This document shows, piece after piece, positions 10,311 through 54,081 of a stretch of DNA of 64,000 nucleotides. The translations under genes and the position numbers were made by a program. Origin of the DNA: Terriglobia bacterium. GTDB taxonomy: Bacteria > Acidobacteriota > Terriglobia > Bryobacterales > UBA6623. The DNA lies in assembly GCA_009838515.1 (NCBI GenBank), contig VXRL01000002.1, positions 147,248-211,247 on the forward strand, written 5' to 3'. Numbering within the stretch: position 1 is the first letter of the stretch; each line of letters begins with the position of its first letter. Below the pieces are notes generated by a model that saw nothing but the letters and a program-made list of their open reading frames with translations, did not search any database and was not told the DNA's origin.

Positions 10311-11600
10311 TCACCGCTGGCGCCGGATGCGGGGGCGGAGTTGACTCTGCCAGTTCTTGTACTCGGCAAGCAGTGTTTGGACGATCATCGATCGGTTCGA
10401 GGCTAGGTTGCGTGTCTCGCCGATGTCGGCCTCTAGGTCGTACAGCTCGATTCCGCCCTTGTCGGCCAGTAGCTTCCAGCGCCCCTTGCGGATCGCCCAG
10501 CCGGTATCGGAATCCTTGTCGATCCAATTCCAGTACAGAGCCTCGTGGAGGGGGCGATCCAGCCGTCCCGCCAAGGCAGGCAACATGTCGCGGCTGTCAA
10601 GTTGGAGTTCGTCGGGAGGCTCAATGCCGGCCGCGGCAAGGACGGTGGAAAACACGTCGATGGAGATCACGGGTTCGTCAGAGACGGTTCCCGCTGGAAT
10701 CCGTTCTGGCCAGCGCGCTAGGAACGGCACGCGAAGGCCGCCTTCGTACACGCTGTGTTTGAAGTTCCGCAGTGCACCGTTGTTCGCCGTGGTGCCTCGA
10801 GCGCCGCCGTTGTCGGACAGGAAGATGACCAGGGTGTTGTGGGACAGATCGAGGCGGTCCAACGTGTCGAGAATCGCTCCCACTCCCTCGTCCATGATCG
10901 CGAGCATGGCCAAGTAGATGCTGCGCTGCGGATCTGGGCTTGCATAGCGCCGAACGTAGTCCTGTGGTGCCTGGAGTGGGTTGTGGACGGCGTTGTAAGG
11001 CACGTAGGCGAAGAGCGGCCTGTCCCGGTTTTCCTCGATGAAGGCGATAGCTTCCTTGGTGATATTTCGCGTCAGGTAGCCAGAGTCGTCTATCGGCGAC
11101 CGGTTGCGGTAGATCGAGCGGACGTCGTCCGAGATGGCCAGGTCGAAATAGTCGTGCCCGCCATGGCCCAGAAACCCGTAGAACGTGTCAAAGCCCCTCT
11201 CCAGCGGGCGGAAGGGCGGCGCATAGCCCAAATGCCACTTGCCGAAGGCCCCCGTGGCGTAACCGTGGTCGCCGAGGACTTCTGCGAGTGTGGTCTCGGA
11301 CCTCGGCAGACCCGCCCGCGAATCAGCGGCGGTGTAGAAGCCGAACCTTTGGTGGTACCGGCCCGTGAGCAGGCCGGCCCGGGTCGGCGCGCAGACAGGA
11401 CAACTCGCATACCCGCTGGTCATGCGTGCGCCCTCCCGGGCGATCCTGTCGAGATTCGGCGTCTGGATCTCGTCCGGGTGCGGGTAGCAGCTGATGTCGG
11501 CGTAGCCTTGGTCGTCAGAGACGATCAAGACCACGTTCGGAACTGCGCCGGCAGCCGCGGCGACCATGAGCGAGACCAGGGATATGAACAGGGGTTTCAT
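10311..11600 (-). CDS. Sulfatase, secreted, Cys-type
   Basis: A 429-residue arylsulfatase-type enzyme that hydrolyses sulfate esters. It has a signal peptide (PLFISLVSLMVAAAAGA), metal-binding VSDDQGYAD near residue 28, and the formylglycine signature C-x-P-T-R (Cys70, CPVCAPTRAGLLTGRY). GKWHLG near residue 122 and the LSDNGG metal site near residue 263 complete the active-site set. The modified Cys needs a formylglycine-generating enzyme, which is not in the window. The start codon overlaps the stop of the GNAT gene (ATGA), so the two are coupled. The natural substrate cannot be read from the sequence. Confidence 0.92.
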   Translation of the reverse strand: MKPLFISLVSLMVAAAAGAVPNVVLIVSDDQGYADISCYPHPDEIQTPNLDRIAREGARMTSGYASCPVCAPTRAGLLTGRYHQRFGFYTAADSRAGLPRSETTLAEVLGDHGYATGAFGKWHLGYAPPFRPLERGFDTFYGFLGHGGHDYFDLAISDDVRSIYRNRSPIDDSGYLTRNITKEAIAFIEENRDRPLFAYVPYNAVHNPLQAPQDYVRRYASPDPQRSIYLAMLAIMDEGVGAILDTLDRLDLSHNTLVIFLSDNGGARGTTANNGALRNFKHSVYEGGLRVPFLARWPERIPAGTVSDEPVISIDVFSTVLAAAGIEPPDELQLDSRDMLPALAGRLDRPLHEALYWNWIDKDSDTGWAIRKGRWKLLADKGGIELYDLEADIGETRNLASNRSMIVQTLLAEYKNWQSQLRPRIRRQR

Positions 11601-16503: not shown

Positions 16504-16643
16504 GCACGGCGCGAGCCAGCGCCGAGCGCGGAGCTTCCCTGTTCCACTCACCTAACCCCGTTCGGGCCGGCGTCTCGCAAGAGTCGGTCTCGACGGGTCC
16601 GGTGCATCCGCACCACGCCTTGAAAGGAATTGCACAGAACTCA

Positions 16644-18179
16644 ATGCAGACAGTGGCCACATCCGAGCGACCCGCGACGAACCCCTTCGTGGTTCTTGGC
16701 GAGGCCGCGCCACAGTCCCGGGCCGCGCGCGGGCTGGTCGGCTCGTCCCCGTTGATTCCGGATATCCCGCTCGAGGACGGCCAGCAGTACCGCTTCCATT
16801 TCGACATGTCGAAATGCGTCGGCTGCAAGTGCTGCGAGGTAGCGTGCGCCGAGCAGAACAACAACCCGGCCGACGTTTCCTGGCGGCGCGTGGGAGAGGT
16901 TGAGGGAGGCATCTTCCCTCACACGCAGCGCATGCACCTTTCCATGGGCTGCAATCACTGCCTCGACCCAGCGTGCATGACAGGCTGTCCTACCGAGGCG
17001 TACTCCAAGGATCCCCGAACCGGCATCGTCCTGCACGATGCCGATTCCTGCATCGGATGCGAGTACTGCATCTGGAACTGCCCGTACAGCGTCCCGACGT
17101 TCAACGAAGCTCGCGGTGTGGTCGGAAAGTGCGACATGTGCCACGGCCGCTTGGCCGACGGCGACGCGCCTGCATGTGTGGACGCCTGCCCGTCTCAGGC
17201 CCTTGCGATCGAGATCGTCGACGTCAGCGAGTGGCGGGGCAAGTACCGCGACGAGGCCAACGCGCCGGGCCTGCCCAGCGCCGACGACACGATCTCGACG
17301 ACCCGCGTCACGCTGCCCGAGCGGCTGCCTCTCGACACCGAGAAGGCCGACTTCCACCGCATCAAGCCGGCGAAGCCGCACTTCTCGCTGGTGCTGATGA
17401 CGGTGCTGACCCAGCTCTCGATCGCGGGCTTTGCGACGACGTGGCTGCTGAGCCTCGCGGGCGCCTCGCAGGCGCTGCGAACCGCGGCGCTGGTATCGCT
17501 CGCGCTGGGCCTGGCATCCTTCGCAGCGTCGCCGCTGCATCTGGGCCGGCCCGCGCTCGCCCCGCTAGCGATCCGCAACGTAAAGACCTCTTGGCTCAGT
17601 CGCGAGATCCTCGGCCTGAGTTCGTTCGGAGCGGCTGCGTCGGTTTGCGCGGCGATGCTGTTGACAGGCATGTCGGGGGCCTCGCTGATAGGCGCCGCCG
17701 CTTCGGTGATCGGTGTCTTCGCAATGTATGCGTCATCGCGCATCTATCTTGTGCCGGGCCGCCCGGCCTGGAACAGTCCGCTGACGATCGCCGACTTCTT
17801 CCTGACCGGTACGACGCTGGGCCCACTACTCGTCGCCATGCTCGGAACGCGATATGACGCTGTCCTGCTCGCATGCGCGGCGGTCTCGGCCGTGGCCCAC
17901 GTGCTGCTGGAAATCTGGCGCTTCTTTGGGTTCGTGCGCACTGATGAGTACGAGAAGCAGGCTACCGCGAGGCTGCTTTCCGGCCCGCTCGCGCGACTCT
18001 TCCTGCTTCGACTTGGACTGCTCGCCACAGGCGCCGTCGGCCTGCCCGCCGTGGGATTCGCGGGCGTGGGCTTCGTACTGGCAGCATGCGGGGCGCTGGT
18101 CGGTCGATACCTGTTCTTCGTCAGCGTGGTGCCTAAGAACATGGCAATGCCGTTTCTGGACAGGAGAGCGGCGGCATGA
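16644..18179 (+). CDS. DmsB-DmsC-like fusion: 4Fe-4S protein plus membrane anchor
   Basis: A 511-residue fusion. The N-terminal half binds four 4Fe-4S clusters, seen as CVGCKCCEVAC, CNHCLDPACMTGC, CIGCEYCIWNC and CDMC ... ACVDAC, in the order typical of DmsB/NrfC electron-transfer subunits. The C-terminal half, from about residue 235, has some eight hydrophobic helices resembling the DmsC quinol-oxidising anchor. It would pass electrons from membrane quinol to the nitrate reductase encoded next, whose start overlaps its stop (ATGA). The start at 16644 follows AAAGGAA; an upstream in-frame extension to 16392 contributes no domain. DmsB and DmsC are usually separate polypeptides. Confidence 0.88.
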   Translation: MQTVATSERPATNPFVVLGEAAPQSRAARGLVGSSPLIPDIPLEDGQQYRFHFDMSKCVGCKCCEVACAEQNNNPADVSWRRVGEVEGGIFPHTQRMHLSMGCNHCLDPACMTGCPTEAYSKDPRTGIVLHDADSCIGCEYCIWNCPYSVPTFNEARGVVGKCDMCHGRLADGDAPACVDACPSQALAIEIVDVSEWRGKYRDEANAPGLPSADDTISTTRVTLPERLPLDTEKADFHRIKPAKPHFSLVLMTVLTQLSIAGFATTWLLSLAGASQALRTAALVSLALGLASFAASPLHLGRPALAPLAIRNVKTSWLSREILGLSSFGAAASVCAAMLLTGMSGASLIGAAASVIGVFAMYASSRIYLVPGRPAWNSPLTIADFFLTGTTLGPLLVAMLGTRYDAVLLACAAVSAVAHVLLEIWRFFGFVRTDEYEKQATARLLSGPLARLFLLRLGLLATGAVGLPAVGFAGVGFVLAACGALVGRYLFFVSVVPKNMAMPFLDRRAAA

Positions 18180-45332: not shown

Positions 45333-46175
45333 TCAGCTTGCAGGCCCCGCCACGTCCGGACCGCGCATCATTGGCACTAGAATCGGCATGAGCTTCTCCA
45401 TGGCGGTCTCCGGGTCTGTCATGTTTACGAGCCCGGTCGAGATCCGATTGATCCGATTTGGATTCTGCGCCATCGTCACGAACACGCCGGTGAATGCGGT
45501 GTATCGCCAGTACACCTCCTCTAGGGACTGGTCTGGCAGAGCACGGCTGAACGCGAACATGAACCGTTTGTGTAGGTTGCCGTAGCAGCGCGCCATGATG
45601 GCCTGCATCTCCTCGGCGGGATCCTGAGCGATCCGTCCTAGGAAGCGCATGTAGCTTGCAAAGGCTGGATCGGTACTCGCCGTGGCCTTCAAGCCCGGCA
45701 GGAAGAACGCTGCGATCACGTCTTCTAGTTGGGGCGGCTTGCTGCGCTCTTCTGCTACGTCCAGTAGCCGGTAGCGTTCGCTGTCGAGTTGATCCACTCG
45801 CCGGGCACAGATCTGGTAGAGGAGATCGTTCCGCGACTCGAAATGGTACGAGAGCGTGGCGTTGCTCACCTCGGCGGCTCTGGCGATCTCCCGCATCGAG
45901 ACTTCGAGTCCGTGTTCGGCGCAAAGGGATTCGGCCACGTTGAGCACGTGTTGCGCTGTTTCGGACGTCAGCGCCGGGCGCGCGGGCAGCGTGTTGCGAC
46001 GCCATCGGTAGTAGGTCGGCTTCGTGATGCCCACCTCGCGGCAGGCATCCGGGACGCTCATCCCGTTCGAGACCCGCTCGCCAACCTTGGAAAGAGCTTG
46101 GCGGATCTGTTCGGATCGCTTTCCCTGCTCTGGTTCCGGCTCATTGCGCCGATGCACCGAACGAGTACTGTTCAT
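45333..46175 (-). CDS. TetR family regulator with extra N-terminal HTH
   Basis: A 280-residue regulator. Residues 20-60 (SEQIRQALSKVGERVSNGMS, then VPDACREVGITKPTYYRWR) look like the helix-turn-helix of IS3-family transposase OrfA. Residues 72-120 are a TetR DNA-binding domain (SMREIARAAEVSNATLSYHF), and the rest is a helical ligand domain. The double-HTH layout is unusual. It is divergent from the aromatic-catabolism operon, whose promoter carries a 20-base palindrome typical of a TetR operator, so it is the obvious candidate repressor. The CoA-transferase follows downstream on the same strand after 360 bases. Confidence 0.85.
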   Translation of the reverse strand: MNSTRSVHRRNEPEPEQGKRSEQIRQALSKVGERVSNGMSVPDACREVGITKPTYYRWRRNTLPARPALTSETAQHVLNVAESLCAEHGLEVSMREIARAAEVSNATLSYHFESRNDLLYQICARRVDQLDSERYRLLDVAEERSKPPQLEDVIAAFFLPGLKATASTDPAFASYMRFLGRIAQDPAEEMQAIMARCYGNLHKRFMFAFSRALPDQSLEEVYWRYTAFTGVFVTMAQNPNRINRISTGLVNMTDPETAMEKLMPILVPMMRGPDVAGPAS

Positions 46176-46694: not shown

Positions 46695-46722
46695 TTGACA
46701 AAGTATTGAACAAGTGTACAAT
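46695..46722 (+). promoter_or_regulatory. Promoter of the aromatic catabolism operon
   Basis: TTGACA at 46695-46700 and TACAAT at 46717-46722 with a 16-base spacer form a near-consensus sigma-70 promoter. It stands 82 bases before the MFS gene start and is the best promoter match in the window. Confidence 0.8.
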
Positions 46723-46803: not shown

Positions 46804-48138
46804 ATGCAACAGGACGTTCGAGAGCTGCTTGCTCGCCGTCCCATGACGGTCCATCAGGTCGTCACCGTCCTGATCTGCCAGGCGATCAACATCCTAGACG
46901 GCTTCGACGTTGTCCTGATTTCCTACGCAGGCCCGCTCCTGGCGCGCGAGTGGGAGTTGCCCGCGGCCAGGCTGGGTACAGTATTCAGCGCCAGTTTGGT
47001 CGGCATGACCATCGGGGCCTTCCTTCTTGCGCCGCTCGCAGACTACGTTGGCAGGCGCCGCACGATCATCGGCGGCCTGTCCGTGGTCACCGCTGGAATG
47101 CTGCTGACTTATTGGGTGGAAAGTGTCCCGCAGATCGTGGCGACGAGAATCCTGACTGGGTTGGGGGTAGGGGCGCTGTTCGCGAGCCTGACCACGCTCG
47201 TGGTCGAGTATTCGTCCGAAAGGCGCCGCACGCTTGCGGTCAGCCTGCTGTACCTCGGGTACCCTATCGGAGCGGTTCTCGGCGGCTTGATTGCGCAGTT
47301 CAACATCGAGCGGACCGGGTGGCAGGCCTTCTTCCTGTACGGGGGATTGATCACAGGCGCACTGATTCCGGTCGCGCTGCTGCGGCTTCCCGAGTCGCTG
47401 GATTACCTGCTGTCGCGGCAGCCGAAGCGTGCCCTGAGCGCGGCCAACAAGCTGATACGCAAGCTGGGCTACGTGCCGATCGACGCGCTGCCGCCAAAGC
47501 CGCCCGCCGCCGGCCGGCAGGCAGTGAGCGTGCTCTTTTCAGAGGCTTACAGGAGGCAGACCTCGGCGCTGTGGATCAGCTTCTTCGCGTCCTTGCTCGT
47601 AATCTACTTTCTGATCAGCTGGACGCCTCAGATTCTCGCCAGCGCGGGCCTTGCGCTCGATCAGAGCATTCTCGGCGGAATGCTCCTCAATCTAGGCGGC
47701 GGTGCCGGTATGCTGGTTTTGGGCCTGGTGTCCGCGCGCTTCTCGCTGCATCGGCTGATCGCGTCGTACTTCACGCTCGCAGCCGTCGTAATGGCGGTGT
47801 TCGCGCTGTCGGCGCTGTCCCTGCCGCTGCTGATTGCGATCACGGCCGCCATCGGATTCTTCAGCTATGGCTCGCTCATCGGCTTGTACGCCTTGGCCGC
47901 GCAGCAGTATCCGGCCAGCGCGCGCTCGACCGGAGTGGGCTGGGCAATCGGTGTTGGAAGAATCGGCTCGATCATCGGGCCTTACGCTGCCGGCCAGATG
48001 ATCGGCTGGGGCTGGGAGCGATCGACCTACTACTTGGTGCTCGCTGCACCGTTGTTGGTGGGCGCGGCGACCGTGCTGCTGTCGAGCACGTTCACAGCCG
48101 GACGGCACGCTGCGACGAAGAACGAAGCCGTCGCATGA
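46804..48138 (+). CDS. MFS transporter, aromatic acid:H+ symporter family
   Basis: A 444-residue major facilitator protein of the AAHS group (PcaK-like). The first helix carries ILDGFDVVLISYAGPLL, the diagnostic D-G-F-D motif, and the loop 2-3 motif is APLADYVGRRRTIIGG. About 12 helices. It would import an aromatic acid or a ring-cleavage dicarboxylate. The ATG at 46804 is used; upstream in-frame codons overlap the promoter. It is the first gene of a six-gene plus-strand operon with short gaps (21, 51, overlap, 86, 20 bases), expected to be controlled by the divergent TetR protein. Confidence 0.9.
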   Translation: MQQDVRELLARRPMTVHQVVTVLICQAINILDGFDVVLISYAGPLLAREWELPAARLGTVFSASLVGMTIGAFLLAPLADYVGRRRTIIGGLSVVTAGMLLTYWVESVPQIVATRILTGLGVGALFASLTTLVVEYSSERRRTLAVSLLYLGYPIGAVLGGLIAQFNIERTGWQAFFLYGGLITGALIPVALLRLPESLDYLLSRQPKRALSAANKLIRKLGYVPIDALPPKPPAAGRQAVSVLFSEAYRRQTSALWISFFASLLVIYFLISWTPQILASAGLALDQSILGGMLLNLGGGAGMLVLGLVSARFSLHRLIASYFTLAAVVMAVFALSALSLPLLIAITAAIGFFSYGSLIGLYALAAQQYPASARSTGVGWAIGVGRIGSIIGPYAAGQMIGWGWERSTYYLVLAAPLLVGAATVLLSSTFTAGRHAATKNEAVA

Positions 48139-48159
48139 GTGTGCCTGGGAGAAATCAAG

Positions 48160-49728
48160 ATGAAAACACTGACCATTCGACTTTCCTTTGTCGCACTGTT
48201 GCTGGTGCTGATCGCGTGGGAGCCCCTGACAAGCTGGGCTCAGAGCCAGCGCTATCAACGAGTGATGGTGGTTCCGGACCGCGACATCCAGACCACGCTC
48301 GACGGCGAGTTCACGATCGCGGCGGTAGGTGACGTCGTTGCCATACGGCCGACCTCGAAGCTAGAAGTCCCGGAAGTTCAGGCGGTCTACTCGCTCCTGC
48401 GGGAGGCCGACGTCTCGTTCGGCAATCTCGAGCAGAACATCGCCGAGCCCGCGAAGGTCTTGGCCGAAAACGACGCGCGCATGTTCCAAGCCTTGGCCCG
48501 GCCCCAAATCGCTGACGACTTGCGCGCCATTGGCTTCGACTTGATGAACTTCGCGAACAACCACACGACGCACTTCGGGCTCGCAGGGCTGCGAGAGACC
48601 ATGAACCACATGAAGCGCGTGGGCATCGTGACTGCCGGCTGGGGCAGGAACCTCGCCGAAGCGCAGCGCGCCAAGTTCCTTGACACCCCGAAGGGGAGGA
48701 TCGGCTTTCTCGGCATCACCACGAATTCCTTCCGGGATGCACGGCACGCGGGCGAGGATTCGCCGGGCTACGCGGGAGCGAACGCCCTCCACGTCCAAAG
48801 GACGGTAACGATCGCACAGGAGGCGCTGGACGCGCTTCGCAAGGCCAAGGAGATCTCTCCCCAGCTGTTTCCAGGACTGTATCCCATCACCAGCGCCCGC
48901 ACTTTCCGGGACGAAGGAGACAGGATCCGGCTGTACGACGAGTACTACGTGGCCGGCGACCATGCCCACTATTCGTACTCAATTCGCTCGGGCGAGCTTG
49001 AGACCTATGCCGGAGAAGTGAGGAACGCCAAGTACCTGTCTGATTTCGTCGTCGCCAACATTCACTCGCACCACTGGCAGGTGCCGGACAACGCGACCTC
49101 GGCCAGCACCGAGACGCGCGAACCGCCCGACTTTCTCGTCGAGCTGGCGCACGCGGCGATCGACAACGGGGCCGACGCCTTCTACTCGCACGGCGAGGGC
49201 GAGCTGCGCGGAATCGAAATCTACAAGGGCAAGCCCATCTTCTACCAATTGGGCAACTTCACGAGGCAGCCTTTCTTCCAAGAGATCTTCAACCCGGAGT
49301 TTCGGAGCATGGCGCGGCGATTCCCGGCCGGGGGCGGCGGGCCTCGCGGCCGGGGTCCGAGAGCGGGCGGCGGGCCACCCGCCGGTGGACGCGGAGCGGG
49401 TGGCGGGCCTCCCGCCAGAGGTCCAGGAGCGGGCGGCGAGAATCTCACCAGGGCCGAGGTGCAAGGCATGATCTACCCGGTCAACCACGGCCGCGAGTAC
49501 TTCGAAAGCGTCGTAGCGGTCAGTCACTACGACGAGGGAGCCTTGAAGCAAATACGCCTGCACCCGGTCGATCTCAAGTTCGACGGTCCGTTCGTTGACA
49601 TCGGAACGCCCCACCTTGCAAGCGGCGAGATTGCGCAGCGGGTTCTTGAGACGATCCGAGAGGCCTCAGAGCCGTTCGGCACTGAGGTGCGCATCGCGGG
49701 CGACGTCGGAATCATCGAAATCAACTAG
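48160..49728 (+). CDS. CapA family (PGA_cap) protein with Gly/Arg/Pro-rich insert
   Basis: A 522-residue exported protein (signal SFVALLLVLIAWEPLTSWA) with the metallophosphatase-like CapA/PgsA fold: AAVGDVV near residue 55, SFGNLEQNI near 86, MNFANNHTTHFG near 129, IHSHHW near 301 and GADAFYSHGEGELRG near 337. CapA proteins are linked to poly-gamma-glutamate capsules, but many homologues, like this one, sit in catabolic operons with unknown roles. Residues 390-426 are an insert of almost only Gly, Pro, Arg and Ala, placed between conserved strands. Second gene of the operon; ATG preceded by GGGAGAAA. Confidence 0.85.
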   Translation: MKTLTIRLSFVALLLVLIAWEPLTSWAQSQRYQRVMVVPDRDIQTTLDGEFTIAAVGDVVAIRPTSKLEVPEVQAVYSLLREADVSFGNLEQNIAEPAKVLAENDARMFQALARPQIADDLRAIGFDLMNFANNHTTHFGLAGLRETMNHMKRVGIVTAGWGRNLAEAQRAKFLDTPKGRIGFLGITTNSFRDARHAGEDSPGYAGANALHVQRTVTIAQEALDALRKAKEISPQLFPGLYPITSARTFRDEGDRIRLYDEYYVAGDHAHYSYSIRSGELETYAGEVRNAKYLSDFVVANIHSHHWQVPDNATSASTETREPPDFLVELAHAAIDNGADAFYSHGEGELRGIEIYKGKPIFYQLGNFTRQPFFQEIFNPEFRSMARRFPAGGGGPRGRGPRAGGGPPAGGRGAGGGPPARGPGAGGENLTRAEVQGMIYPVNHGREYFESVVAVSHYDEGALKQIRLHPVDLKFDGPFVDIGTPHLASGEIAQRVLETIREASEPFGTEVRIAGDVGIIEIN

Positions 49729-49779
49729 CGATGCCGGTGCAGGGAAACGCGTTGCCGCAGAGTCCATCGGAATAGCGCC

Positions 49780-50553
49780 ATGTGTCATATCCGCAAGCTC
49801 TCGCTTTGCCCGGACGAGCAGCAGGTGTCCGAGTACACCGGCGTGGTGTCGGCGCTCCGCTACGCGAGTGCAGGCGGGTCCAGACGGATCGCATTGCTGC
49901 CCGACATCTACGGCGTGACGCCGTTTTACAAGGGACTGGCATCGCTTCTCTCGGACCGCGGGGCCGTTGTGTATCTGGTCGATCCTTGGCAACCGTTCGG
50001 CGAATTGCCGGAGATGACGCGGGAAGCAGCTTGGGCGAGGCGCCATCACCTGCGCGACCGGGCGTTCTGCGATGAGCTGAATGCCTTTCTGGACCAGGAG
50101 GGAATCGACACCGTTGTCGGATTCTGCATCGGAGGGAACTTCGTTCTCGAGCTGGTTCGTCGTGGCTACCGCGGCACTTGTTGCGCGTTCTACCCGCTGC
50201 CGTGGGGAATGGCCAACGACGACGGGCTGCAGCCGCCATTCGAGTACATGGAGGGTCTGGACCACGAGGTGACGATTCTCATGGGCGAGCAGGACCCTTT
50301 GGCCGGTCCGGAGAACATACGCAGGCTTCGCGAGGTCTGCGCGCGAAACCCGGCCATGGACCTCCACCTATACGGGGTGTCCGGACACGGCTTTCTGGCC
50401 GACGTGGACAGCGATCAAGAAACTCTCCGGAGCAATGCCCGGGCAGCCTTGGACGTCGTGTTGAACCGGGTTTTCCGGGCGCCAGCGCCCGCAAGCATCG
50501 AGCACCCGGCGGCCGACGGGGAACTGCTGGGCTCAAGGGGGATGACGACTTGA
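49780..50553 (+). CDS. Dienelactone hydrolase family protein
   Basis: A 257-residue cytoplasmic alpha/beta hydrolase with the dienelactone hydrolase triad: Cys116 in VVGFCIGGNF, Asp172 in MGEQDPLAG and His203 in SGHGFL, spaced nearly as in the Pseudomonas enzyme. It would open a dienelactone or muconolactone-type ring to maleylacetate. Its stop codon overlaps the TTG start of maleylacetate reductase, the next enzyme of that pathway, which supports the assignment. No low-complexity insert, unlike the exported proteins of this operon. Confidence 0.87.
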   Translation: MCHIRKLSLCPDEQQVSEYTGVVSALRYASAGGSRRIALLPDIYGVTPFYKGLASLLSDRGAVVYLVDPWQPFGELPEMTREAAWARRHHLRDRAFCDELNAFLDQEGIDTVVGFCIGGNFVLELVRRGYRGTCCAFYPLPWGMANDDGLQPPFEYMEGLDHEVTILMGEQDPLAGPENIRRLREVCARNPAMDLHLYGVSGHGFLADVDSDQETLRSNARAALDVVLNRVFRAPAPASIEHPAADGELLGSRGMTT

Positions 50554-51614
50554 CCGACTTCGCCTTCAGAGCGCTTCCCTGGAACGTCGTGTTCGGAATC
50601 GGGGCAGTGGAGCGGCTTCCAGCGGAGATGGATGCCCTCGGCCTCGACCGGGCATTGGTGCTTTGCACGCCTGGCAGTCAGGCTCGGGGCCGCTTGATCG
50701 CGAAACAGTTGGGTGATCGGGCTGCCGGGCTCTTTGCCGATGCCCGGATGCACGTGCCCTCGACGGTCCTTGACGAGGCGTCTCGTCGCGCGCGTGACTT
50801 GGGAGCCAAGAGCACGGTTTCCATCGGCGGGGGATCGACCACTGGCCTGGGCAAGGCGCTCGCGGCGCGCGAAGGCCTAGACAATGTCGCGATCCCGACA
50901 ACGTACTCAGGCTCGGAAATGACGGACATCTGGGGCGTGACCGAGTCCGGTCGCAAGGTTACGTCCCGGGACGCTAGGGTTGTTCCGACGCTCACGATTT
51001 ACGATCCGAACCTCACCGTCAGCCTGTCCGCACGCATGTCGGCCTCGAGCGGCCTGAACGCGCTCGCCCAAGCGGTTGTCAATGTGGCCGCCGACAAGCC
51101 CAGTCCGATCGCATCGGCGCTGGCGGTGGAAGGGATTCGGGCACTCGCGAAGGCGCTCCCGCGCGTCGTCACGGAACCGAACGACCTCGAGGCGCGGTCC
51201 GAGGCCCTGTACGGGGCTTGCATCGCTGCGGGCGCATTGGGCGTCGGCTCCACCGGGTTGCACCACCGCTTGTGCCACACCCTCGGCGGCACCTTCGGCA
51301 CTCCGCACGCCGAGACGCACGCGATCCTGCTGCCGCACAGCGTTGCCTACAATGCGACGGCCTTGCCAGCCGGCACCCAAAAGGTTGCCGATGCGTTAGG
51401 AGTGGCCGACGCCCCGGCCGGGATCTACGAGTTGGCCAAGCAGCTGGGGGCACCGACCGCCCTCAGACAGCTTGGCGTGGGCGAGGGCGATCTCGACAGG
51501 GTGGCGGAGATCGTCGCGCGCCCTTCCGCCCCCGTCCGTCCGCCTGCGCCCATCGATCGCGTTCGAACTCTTCTGCAGAATGCGTTCGAGGGCTTGCCGC
51601 CGCAGCGAGTGTAG
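50550..51614 (+). CDS. Maleylacetate reductase
   Basis: A 354-residue iron-alcohol-dehydrogenase-family enzyme of the maleylacetate reductase type, which reduces maleylacetate to 3-oxoadipate with NAD(P)H. Features: WNVVFGIGAVERLPAEMD, the nucleotide-binding VSIGGGSTTGLGKALA, AIPTTYSGSEMTDIWG, and the metal/active-site region LHHRLCHTLGGTFGTPHAETHA. The start is TTG at 50550, overlapping the previous stop (TTGA), after AAGGGGGA; the frame is open upstream but that sequence belongs to the dienelactone hydrolase gene. The product feeds the CoA-transferase encoded at 43626-44972. Confidence 0.9.
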   Translation: MTDFAFRALPWNVVFGIGAVERLPAEMDALGLDRALVLCTPGSQARGRLIAKQLGDRAAGLFADARMHVPSTVLDEASRRARDLGAKSTVSIGGGSTTGLGKALAAREGLDNVAIPTTYSGSEMTDIWGVTESGRKVTSRDARVVPTLTIYDPNLTVSLSARMSASSGLNALAQAVVNVAADKPSPIASALAVEGIRALAKALPRVVTEPNDLEARSEALYGACIAAGALGVGSTGLHHRLCHTLGGTFGTPHAETHAILLPHSVAYNATALPAGTQKVADALGVADAPAGIYELAKQLGAPTALRQLGVGEGDLDRVAEIVARPSAPVRPPAPIDRVRTLLQNAFEGLPPQRV

Positions 51615-51700
51615 CCGTGCCGTTGGCGAGAGAATCATCGATGCATCCCGTTGCAATCAAGAGAAACCAAAGAGGAACCAACCGAAGAGGAGGCAACAAC

Positions 51701-52528
51701 ATGCCGGACCAACATCCGCGAATCATCAAGCCGACCAGGCGGGAGACGATCATTGGCGCCAGTGCAGCCCTTGGCTCGCTAGTGGTCGGCCCGGACTTCT
51801 CCCGTGCCGCCGAGTGCATCTTGACCTCGACACAGATCGATGGCCCCTACCACATCCAGGATGCCGAAGATCGGCATGACGTGCGCTCTGGCAAGCCGGG
51901 CGTCGACCTCCTGCTGCGCATGAAGATCGTCGACGCCGAGGGCTGCGAGGGGATCGCGGGGGTTAGGACCGAGATCTGGTCCTGCGATGCTCTCGGCAAC
52001 TACAGCGGCCATCCCGACGTCGATCCCAACGTTCCGCCCAGATTGGGTGGCGGGGGCCGCCCACCCGGAGGCGGAGCACGAGGTCGGACTGGCGGGCCGC
52101 GTCCGCCCAGAGCTGGACAACGTCCGCCTGCCGGACCGCCCGGCGGAGTTCGCGGCGGCCATCGTGAGCCGACCGGCCCGAAACGATTCCTGCGCGGCTC
52201 CCAATTGGCGAACGATCAGGGCGAGGCGGAATTCCTGACAATCTACCCCGGCTGGTACAACCCGCGCGCCGTGCACGTACACGTGAAGGTGCATCTTGGC
52301 GGCCAGGAATTGCTCACGACCCAGCTCTATTTCCCCGATGACTTGACCGACTCGATCCATCAGACGGAGCCCTACGCAGAGCGCTACCCGACGCCCTTTC
52401 CGAACTCCAAGGATCGAGTCAAGTACTGGACGACCGGAGGGGAAGAGCCGATCGGCGTCTTTCCGACGATGACGACCGAAGGCAACGCCCAGGTCGGAAC
52501 GCTCACGATCGGAGTCAAGCGGGTCTGA
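51701..52528 (+). CDS. Intradiol ring-cleavage dioxygenase, Tat-exported, with Gly/Arg/Pro-rich insert
   Basis: A 275-residue non-haem iron dioxygenase of the protocatechuate 3,4-/hydroxyquinol 1,2-dioxygenase superfamily. All four iron ligands can be assigned: Tyr101 (LGNYS), Tyr186, His192 and His194 (YPGWYNPRAVHVHVKV). The N-terminus has a twin-arginine signal (TRRETIIGASAALGSLVVG), so it is probably exported folded with its iron; most pathway intradiol enzymes are cytoplasmic. Residues 116-153 are a Gly/Pro/Arg-rich insert between the first ligand and the core. Start set by GAGGAGG before the ATG at 51701. It probably opens a catechol or hydroxyquinol ring for the maleylacetate route. Confidence 0.88.
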   Translation: MPDQHPRIIKPTRRETIIGASAALGSLVVGPDFSRAAECILTSTQIDGPYHIQDAEDRHDVRSGKPGVDLLLRMKIVDAEGCEGIAGVRTEIWSCDALGNYSGHPDVDPNVPPRLGGGGRPPGGGARGRTGGPRPPRAGQRPPAGPPGGVRGGHREPTGPKRFLRGSQLANDQGEAEFLTIYPGWYNPRAVHVHVKVHLGGQELLTTQLYFPDDLTDSIHQTEPYAERYPTPFPNSKDRVKYWTTGGEEPIGVFPTMTTEGNAQVGTLTIGVKRV

Positions 52529-52548
52529 CGGGCCCTCGGGAGTGCGCC

Positions 52549-54081
52549 ATGAGAGCAGCAAAACGAGCAGCGGGCCTCGCGCCGCTGGTGTTGGCCTCCA
52601 CGCTGGCGGCGTGGGGCGCCGGACCGAACATCTTGCTGATGATGGCAGATGACCTCGGTTGGAACGACGTCGGTTTCAACGGGAGCGCGATCGAGACGCC
52701 CGCAATCGACAGCTTGGCGTCCGGAGGGTTGCGCCTGGACCGCTACTACGCGTTTTCGCTTTGTACGCCGACCCGTGTTGCGATCATGACAGGCCGCTCC
52801 CCGTTGCGGTTCGGGATTTTCGGTCCTATCATCGACCACGGCGGCCTGCCGCTTGAGGAAACCACGGTCGGCGAGATCTTTCGGGACGCGGGCTACCAGA
52901 CTTGGTACCTGGGCAAGTGGCATCTCGGCCACGGAAGGCGCGCCTACTTCCCCAACGAGCGCGGCTGGGACCACTCCTACGGCTCGCTGACCGGCGGGCT
53001 TGACCACTACTCCCACAACAGCGACGTGTTGATGGGTGCTCCAGACTGGCATCGGAACGGCGAGCCCATCGAAGAAGAGGGCCACACGACGGACCTGTAT
53101 ACCCAGGAAGCGCTCCGCCTGCTCGAGGGCCGCGACAAGGAAACCCGCTTCTTCATGTACGTCTCGTGGAATGCGCCGCACGCGCCCTTGCAGGCGGTCG
53201 AACCGTATCTGGAGCGGTACGCGCGCGTCGATGACGAAGTTCGGCGGACCTACGCCGCAATGGTGACTCATCTTGATGACTCGGTCGCGTCCCTGATCGA
53301 GGCTCTCGAGCGGGAAGGGCTACGCCAGGACACGCTCGTGATCTGGGTGAGCGACAACGGCGGAATCCCGTCAGGCGGTGGGAACAACAGCCCACTCCAC
53401 GGCGGCAAGGGCAGCCCCTACGAGGGCGGCACGCGCGTGCCGGGCCTCGTGAACTGGCCCGGCACGATCGAGCCGGGAGTCCTTTCCCAGCAGGTCAGCG
53501 CCTTGGACTGGCTGCCGACACTGCTTTCCGCCACGGGGGTCCCTCGGACAGACTCTAAGCCGTTGGATGGGTTCGACATGTGGCCCGCGATCGCTGCCGG
53601 GCGATCCGTCGAGCGCGGCGACTTGGTCTTCGGCTCCAACTTTGGTCGAGCTCTGTTTCGCGGGAAGTGGAAGTATGTCGAGACCGTGCCGGGATGGCTA
53701 GGGCTCGGCGGGCCGGGCAGGCGTCCGGGGCAGGGCCCGCTAGGCCGGGCAGGCGGCGCGCGTCGCCCGGGGCAGGGCCCACCAGGCGGTCGAGGCGGTG
53801 CCGGTCGCCCGGGCCCTCCGGGGCGGGGCCGGCCGCAGCAACGAAGCCAGCAGGCGCTCTACGACGTCTACGCGGACCCTACTGAATCCAACAACGTAGC
53901 CGCGGAGCACCCAGATCTCGTGAACGAGCTCGCGGCCTTCGTCCGCGCCTTCCACGCCGGCGTGCCGAGCATCGCCCGAGGGTTCGGCCTGCGCGATGGC
54001 GGCACGTTTGCCCGGGTCGGTCCTATGGCGACCTTCCCCGAGGACCGCGGGGCTCACGTCATCGACCGCGTTGACGAATGA
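52549..54081 (+). CDS. Sulfatase, secreted, with Gly/Arg/Pro-rich insert
   Basis: A 510-residue secreted sulfatase. Signal peptide APLVLASTLAAWGA; metal site MADDLGWND near residue 32; formylglycine motif C-T-P-T-R with Cys72; GKWHLGHGR near 122; WVSDNGG near 266. Residues 387-428 form an insert rich in Gly, Arg and Pro with repeated RPGQGP units, placed just before the conserved LYDVYADPTESNN segment. It is the last gene of the aromatic operon, 20 bases after the dioxygenase, so it may release phenolic sulfates as substrates. It is followed by a strong hairpin. Confidence 0.92.
   Translation: MRAAKRAAGLAPLVLASTLAAWGAGPNILLMMADDLGWNDVGFNGSAIETPAIDSLASGGLRLDRYYAFSLCTPTRVAIMTGRSPLRFGIFGPIIDHGGLPLEETTVGEIFRDAGYQTWYLGKWHLGHGRRAYFPNERGWDHSYGSLTGGLDHYSHNSDVLMGAPDWHRNGEPIEEEGHTTDLYTQEALRLLEGRDKETRFFMYVSWNAPHAPLQAVEPYLERYARVDDEVRRTYAAMVTHLDDSVASLIEALEREGLRQDTLVIWVSDNGGIPSGGGNNSPLHGGKGSPYEGGTRVPGLVNWPGTIEPGVLSQQVSALDWLPTLLSATGVPRTDSKPLDGFDMWPAIAAGRSVERGDLVFGSNFGRALFRGKWKYVETVPGWLGLGGPGRRPGQGPLGRAGGARRPGQGPPGGRGGAGRPGPPGRGRPQQRSQQALYDVYADPTESNNVAAEHPDLVNELAAFVRAFHAGVPSIARGFGLRDGGTFARVGPMATFPEDRGAHVIDRVDE

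Follow-up and report, generated by a model that had tools for sequence, protein, structure and literature searches.

Relation to described systems

The sections of a survey drawn on here (PMC6821194) describe low-complexity regions (LCRs) of bacterial proteins as Pro-, Gly- and Ala-rich, report that Arg is under-represented in them, and tie the Arg-rich examples to RNA binding. Within a 64-kb window of a Terriglobia bacterium (contig VXRL01000002.1; the window is the whole stretch of DNA analyzed, and positions are counted from its first letter), Gly/Arg/Pro/Ala-rich inserts interrupt a CapA-like protein, an intradiol dioxygenase and a sulfatase, all three predicted to be exported. We tentatively read each insert as an Arg-rich Gly/Pro/Ala disordered loop, a putative charge tether of a predicted-exported enzyme to polyanionic matter, and give this reading a probability of roughly 0.4.

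The inserts belong among bacterial LCRs and are not a new system. In common with the prokaryotic LCRs covered in the same sections (PMC6821194) are the Gly/Pro/Ala-rich tracts, the conserved presence (in the dioxygenase and sulfatase, not in CapA) and the flexible, ligand-binding roles proposed for them, whereas Arg here makes up ~17% of the dioxygenase and sulfatase inserts and the carriers are predicted-exported enzymes. The tracts draw on a small set of residue types to a degree that chance does not explain: shuffling the residues within each of 977 called proteins five times gave no tract, against nine observed. RG/RGG domains are likewise rich in Arg and Gly and disordered; the window inserts differ from them in being Pro-rich, mostly mixtures of RP, RG and GP in predicted-exported enzymes, with at most one RGG triplet each (one in the dioxygenase, one in the sulfatase, none in CapA). 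Pfam returned no RNA-binding domain in the three tract proteins. The strict Gly-X-Y period of collagen-like sequences is broken by runs of GGGG and PPGGG, and the DNA periods are 33 and 42 bp.

By Foldseek, the nearest folds to the window dioxygenase are SACTE_2871 (4ilt) and a spider-mite dioxygenase (5vg2). By its title, 4ilt is a dioxygenase/carbohydrate-binding fusion, which offers a precedent for tethering a dioxygenase through an attached glycan-binding part; the tethering part is a folded domain in 4ilt, whereas it would be a predicted disordered basic loop here. By the same comparison, the window sulfatase has the fold of the S1 sulfatases, including human 4-sulfatase (1fsu) and carrageenan S1_19 enzymes (6b0j, 9hh2). 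No report of the inserts appeared among the papers listed on exported proteins of low complexity, sulfatases of Acidobacteriota, Bryobacterales and intradiol dioxygenases that are secreted.

Position and composition of the inserts

Scanning all six frames of the window gave, at the threshold used, exactly three Gly/Arg/Pro/Ala tracts (49294-49458, 52028-52171 and 53698-53850), which lie in frame in the CapA-like, the dioxygenase and the sulfatase gene, respectively. This bears out the earlier note on this DNA, which had placed inserts in the same three proteins at residue positions correct to within a few residues. The CapA-like protein (48139-49728, forward strand; 529 aa; PGA_cap, PF09587, 2.5e-42; N-terminal signal predicted by a heuristic) contains an insert of 34 residues (49333-49434) within a tandem array of 3.3 copies of a 33-bp unit (49332-49438). 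In the intradiol dioxygenase (51701-52528, forward strand; 275 aa; PF00775, 7.6e-11 for a version that begins at 51644; both start and signal assigned heuristically), a Gly/Arg/Pro insert of 41 residues (52040-52162) lies between strands 89-93 and 165-169 of the AlphaFold2 model; the N-terminal TRRETIIGA of this protein is, we assume, a Tat-like motif. The sulfatase (52549-54081, forward strand; 510 aa; PF00884, 2.6e-62; signal peptide predicted heuristically) has the longest insert, 53 residues rich in Gly, Arg, Pro and Gln (53695-53853), between strands 374-379 and 434-439 and including 2.1 copies of a 42-bp unit (53725-53813). The Arg count is 5 in the CapA, 8 in the dioxygenase and 10 in the sulfatase insert, and Lys, Asp and Glu are absent from all three.

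Outside the inserts, both enzymes retain residues typical of their families. Y101, Y186, H192 and H194 of the dioxygenase are invariant in 59 sequences, and we take them, the choice of tyrosines being our own assignment, to be the two-Tyr two-His iron ligands. C72 and P74 of the sulfatase are invariant and R76 nearly so in 54 sequences, matching C-x-P-x-R, presumably the formylglycine motif of S1 sulfatases.

In the 20 direct-repeat families listed, of 26 found, no repeat of at least 20 nt links the insert of one gene with that of another, and gene-to-gene duplication was rejected on this ground. The earlier note, which set simple duplication aside, needs one correction: within CapA and the sulfatase tandem duplication does contribute. 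At locus L024 of a related genome (G006, contig C294; 4997-6619), the CapA insert lacks one 33-bp unit and is 11 residues shorter than that of the window, and CapA residues 437-459 (~23 codons), which follow the insert, have two matches within a single open frame, a sign that the site is prone to local duplication.

Inserts in related genomes

The nearest match to the dioxygenase was the Terriglobia metagenome-assembled genome (MAG) SB0661_bin_30, whose top-scoring segment is 100% identical, and Bryobacterales MAGs came next; several of these MAGs are, we assume, from marine sponges. Any dioxygenase match was found in 18 of 41 genomes, and the tract is present in all ten genomes with an orthologue over the loop (the genome of the window included; the orthologue of G008 is split by a frame break). 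In a database comparison listing 120 proteins, the window dioxygenase and all 54 of its closest homologues (P0001-P0054) have an insert of 15-56 residues. The more distant homologues (P0058-P0120) have a loop of at least 15 residues in 40 cases and a shorter one in the other 23 of 63, and the 40 longer loops are for the most part G/P-rich, with an average charge close to zero. All sulfatase orthologues whose loop could be read (the window and six loci) carry the tract, as do the proteins of the clade P0121-P0147 wherever they are not truncated, with insert lengths of 24-66 residues across homologues. Outside this clade (P0148-P0209 among the rows listed) the corresponding segment is mostly ~27 residues (20-41), against 53-86 in complete clade members, and the alignment to a paralogue in the same genome (55% identity) stops at residue 381, where the insert starts.

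Across orthologues the inserts keep their position and vary in length, partly by whole tandem-repeat units. The CapA insert has been gained or lost repeatedly: on a tree built without the loop, the insert label needs three changes, two of them forced by starred branches. Short CapA loops read RRPAGRR, RRIPGGNRG and RSPAGGRD, and such Arg/Pro/Gly turns are plausible seeds for the inserts.

Further loci bear on single genes. At L029 (10001-10832) the dioxygenase frame is broken at residue 107-108, a little ahead of the insert. A dioxygenase relative of 43% identity from another family of the order (L011 in G030, 1771-1938) has a GGP tandem run in the loop region. At L022 (RHO3_bin_40, G005; 10894-11070) the match to the sulfatase stops after residue 59, and a DUF1552 gene lies close behind it.

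Predicted disorder, charge and constraint

In the AlphaFold2 models the predicted local distance difference test (pLDDT) is <50 over residues 387-430 of the sulfatase insert and ~50-65 for most of the length of dioxygenase residues 114-150, in proteins where 370 of 510 and 171 of 275 residues, respectively, have a pLDDT of at least 90. This low confidence amid confident folds points to predicted disorder of the dioxygenase and sulfatase inserts. Net charge is positive in all 55 dioxygenase inserts (mean +5.3) and in 25 of 26 sulfatase inserts; the 40 G/P-rich loops of distant dioxygenase homologues at the same site have a mean charge of +0.7. These composition counts leave out dioxygenases P0055-P0057 (truncated or misaligned), the 23 homologues from P0058 onward with loops <15 residues, and sulfatases P0141 and P0145, which end before the loop. 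The flexible basic loops suggested in the earlier note agree with both results.

Selection was followed in close pairs, one per gene (L023-L024 for the dioxygenase and for the sulfatase, window-L024 for CapA). Pooled, the inserts contain 7 non-synonymous and 24 synonymous differences over 120 codons, a ratio of non-synonymous to synonymous differences per site (pN/pS) of 0.137, compared with 0.156 over 1,201 codons of flanking sequence; under no constraint the 24:7 skew has a binomial probability of 2.8e-7. Taken singly, insert and flank substitution rate ratios (dN/dS) are 0.21 and 0.24 for the dioxygenase, 0.07 and 0.15 for the sulfatase, and 0.09 and 0.07 for CapA. GC content in the window inserts is 0.83-1.0 at the first and second codon positions (GC1, GC2) and 0.51-0.74 at the third (GC3). 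Codon usage predicts a pooled insert GC3 of 0.779; the observed value is lower, 0.636 (p 5e-5; by gene, p 0.0002 for the dioxygenase, 0.04 for CapA and 0.25 for the sulfatase), and close to the intergenic GC of 0.624. The commonest Gly and Pro codons in the inserts are GGC (25 of 53) and CCG (12 of 26), yet both stay below their genome frequencies of 0.56 and 0.51. From the pN/pS and codon-position results it follows that amino acids are kept, not GC-rich DNA, and the inserts are under protein-level constraint in close relatives. The rate test warns against dismissing GC-rich low-complexity inserts as slippage noise.

Tracts elsewhere in the genome

A census of the genome (G000, 5.84 Mb) covered 2.04 Mb, or 35%, as a sample of large contigs with heuristic gene calls and a crude signal predictor, and found a tract in 11 of 1,588 called proteins. 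On contig C23, ~4 kb separates a second pair of tract proteins, a YHYH protein and a sulfatase whose tail is basic. The five tract proteins without a predicted signal are SSB (L181), an HlyD-type protein (L132) that is presumably periplasmic, a protein with a weak DUF4175 match (L117), an M16 peptidase (L183) in which, by eye, a later Met opens a signal-like stretch, and L217. The last (16535-17911) appears GspF-like by eye, and its Gly/Arg/Pro-rich sequence directly borders a stretch of N, which probably reflects an error in scaffolding. L128 (11078-13888) encodes 937 aa, in which Gly/Arg-rich loops lie between EF-hands and a PPDK_N domain is C-terminal. Sulfatases are numerous in this genome, with at least 150 matches to PF00884 above the cut-off (150 of 248 candidates scored).

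Possible roles of the inserts

As a charge tether, a loop may arise by tandem duplication from a short turn already holding Arg, Pro and Gly, and would be retained for holding a soluble enzyme near anionic substrates or surfaces. Outside the cytoplasm, candidate polyanions are sulfated glycans, lipopolysaccharide and extracellular DNA; the nearest folds of the sulfatase, GalNAc-4-sulfatase and the carrageenan sulfatases, act, as we understand it, on anionic polysaccharides. An exported enzyme would in this way gain a substrate anchor through a few surface-turn repeats, without acquiring a binding domain, and the CapA homologues with and without the insert form a natural before/after pair. It is unlikely, though worth stating, that the loops amount to a clade-specific electrostatic address tag, whereby unrelated exported enzymes of a single acidobacterial clade repeatedly grow Arg-Gly-Pro loops by tandem duplication of surface turns, in place of folded binding domains, for hold on an anionic or sulfated matrix.

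Several observations weigh against a charge tether. Acidic residues are depleted only ~twofold once boundary residues are trimmed, and charge itself may therefore not be what is selected; the depletion had looked strong at first as proof of charge selection and was dropped as a main argument. At greater evolutionary distance the inserts change faster than their flanks, with dN/dS of 0.72 for the window-L022 dioxygenase insert and 0.32 and 0.25 for window-L024 inserts, compared with 0.13-0.16 for flanks, the alignment of such diverged insert sequence being uncertain. The GC3 deficit is absent from the dioxygenases of L027 (0.89) and L028 (0.78) and from L101 (0.80). Absence from close orthologues, which the earlier note had named as telling against its proposal, was seen neither in the dioxygenase nor in the sulfatase and in part in CapA, where the insert is found in 3 of 16 close homologues (P0241-P0256), a short form in one and none in 12. 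Among the 30 top-scoring sulfatases of the genome 28 lack a tract and only two have one, and G009, of the same genus, has no tract in 313 proteins (400 kb). The earlier note had likewise set store by the tracts being rarer in cytoplasmic proteins. In the census a signal is predicted for 6 of the 11 tract proteins and 481 of the 1,577 others (p 0.085, not significant), and for 6 of the 8 proteins with tracts of net +4 or more; an earlier, smaller sample (1.24 Mb) had given 6 of 8 tract proteins. In favor of the tether, a subset picked post hoc, internal tracts of net +4 or more with no adjacent N, gave five of five (p 0.0027), leaving out L100 and L183, whose tracts are terminal, and L217, beside N.

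Nearly as likely as the tether is a loop kept only flexible and soluble, in which tandem-repeat growth is tolerated at surface turns, hydrophobic or structured variants are purged and the charge is a by-product of GC-rich codons. The Arg-poor, G/P-rich loops at the same dioxygenase site in the 40 distant homologues, the free gain or loss of the CapA insert, the modest acidic depletion after trimming and the insert length ranges of both other enzymes all agree with it; against it, such a loop could equally well be built of Ser, Thr, Asn, Asp, Glu and Lys, which are rare, and in close pairs the inserts and the catalytic flanks have equally low pN/pS. We consider it improbable that each loop is instead an enzyme-specific lid covering or shaping its own active site. 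The dioxygenase insert does start 13 residues past the invariant Tyr101, presumably an iron ligand, and the loop after this residue varies throughout the dioxygenase homologues listed, but in the sulfatase the insert belongs to a C-terminal hairpin, a long way along the chain from Cys72, and one composition is common to three unrelated folds.

Co-assembly, in which the loops bind each other or a common partner to form one complex or condensate, had been raised in the earlier note and has lost ground; we now regard it as quite improbable. In its favor, three tract proteins lie within five consecutive genes of one operon (probability 0.0023 given 11 tract proteins sampled, the observed cluster itself counting among the 11), and dioxygenase and sulfatase insert lengths correlate over six same-contig pairs (rho 0.93, p 0.008), although three of the six are close relatives and the pairs are thus not independent. 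Other tract proteins, however, lie elsewhere in the genome, and the dioxygenase insert is intact in L022, with its shortened sulfatase match, and is kept in G004 and G007, where no sulfatase orthologue was found at E 1e-120, and in G001 and G003, where no CapA orthologue was found (84 of ~270-340 first-look candidates per genome were scored in this search of the genus). As the loops are not dependent on one another, a complex of all three is unlikely, and a property of some exported proteins in the clade fits better. We hold it least probable of all, and very improbable, that the inserts are an artefact of assembly, an element acting at the RNA level or GC-rich filler from slippage. Two of the three contain tandem arrays, and the ~23 codons beside the L024 CapA insert match twice in one open frame; filler is contradicted by the codon-position and pN/pS tests, mRNA structure by the RNA folding of the three segments, which did not exceed that of shuffled sequences (z -0.68, -0.54 and 0.90), and artefact by the presence of the inserts in other MAG records, and all three were rejected on these grounds. 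Among the explanations weighed, the charge tether is the one that we favor.

The surrounding gene cluster

The genes are ordered as a major facilitator superfamily (MFS) transporter, the CapA-like protein, a dienelactone hydrolase, a maleylacetate reductase, the intradiol dioxygenase and the sulfatase, with a divergent TetR gene. Intergenic gaps of at most 90 bases suggest a single operon, which appears to be an aromatic-catabolism operon including three predicted-exported members. A scan for promoters and terminators across it gave no excess over shuffles. The MFS transporter (46804-48138, forward strand; alternative start GTG at 46714) is of the aromatic-acid/H+ symport type, scoring 335.5 bits against TIGR00895, below the cut-off of 418.55, and is without a tract. 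As the earlier note had it, tracts are also absent from the dienelactone hydrolase family protein (49780-50553, forward strand; Pfam) and the maleylacetate reductase-type Fe-ADH (50541-51614, forward strand; Pfam; structures 3w5s and 3hl0), and no signal is predicted for either. The TetR regulator (45333-46175, reverse strand; Pfam) has an extra N-terminal transposase-like helix-turn-helix, with HTH_Tnp_1 and HTH_23 matches preceding the TetR domain. The CapA-like protein also matches the NCBIfam model of the lasso-peptide Trp epimerase MslH (1.5e-51; 175 of 700 bits, far under the cut-off), and this MslH-matching gene sits within an apparent aromatic-catabolism cluster.

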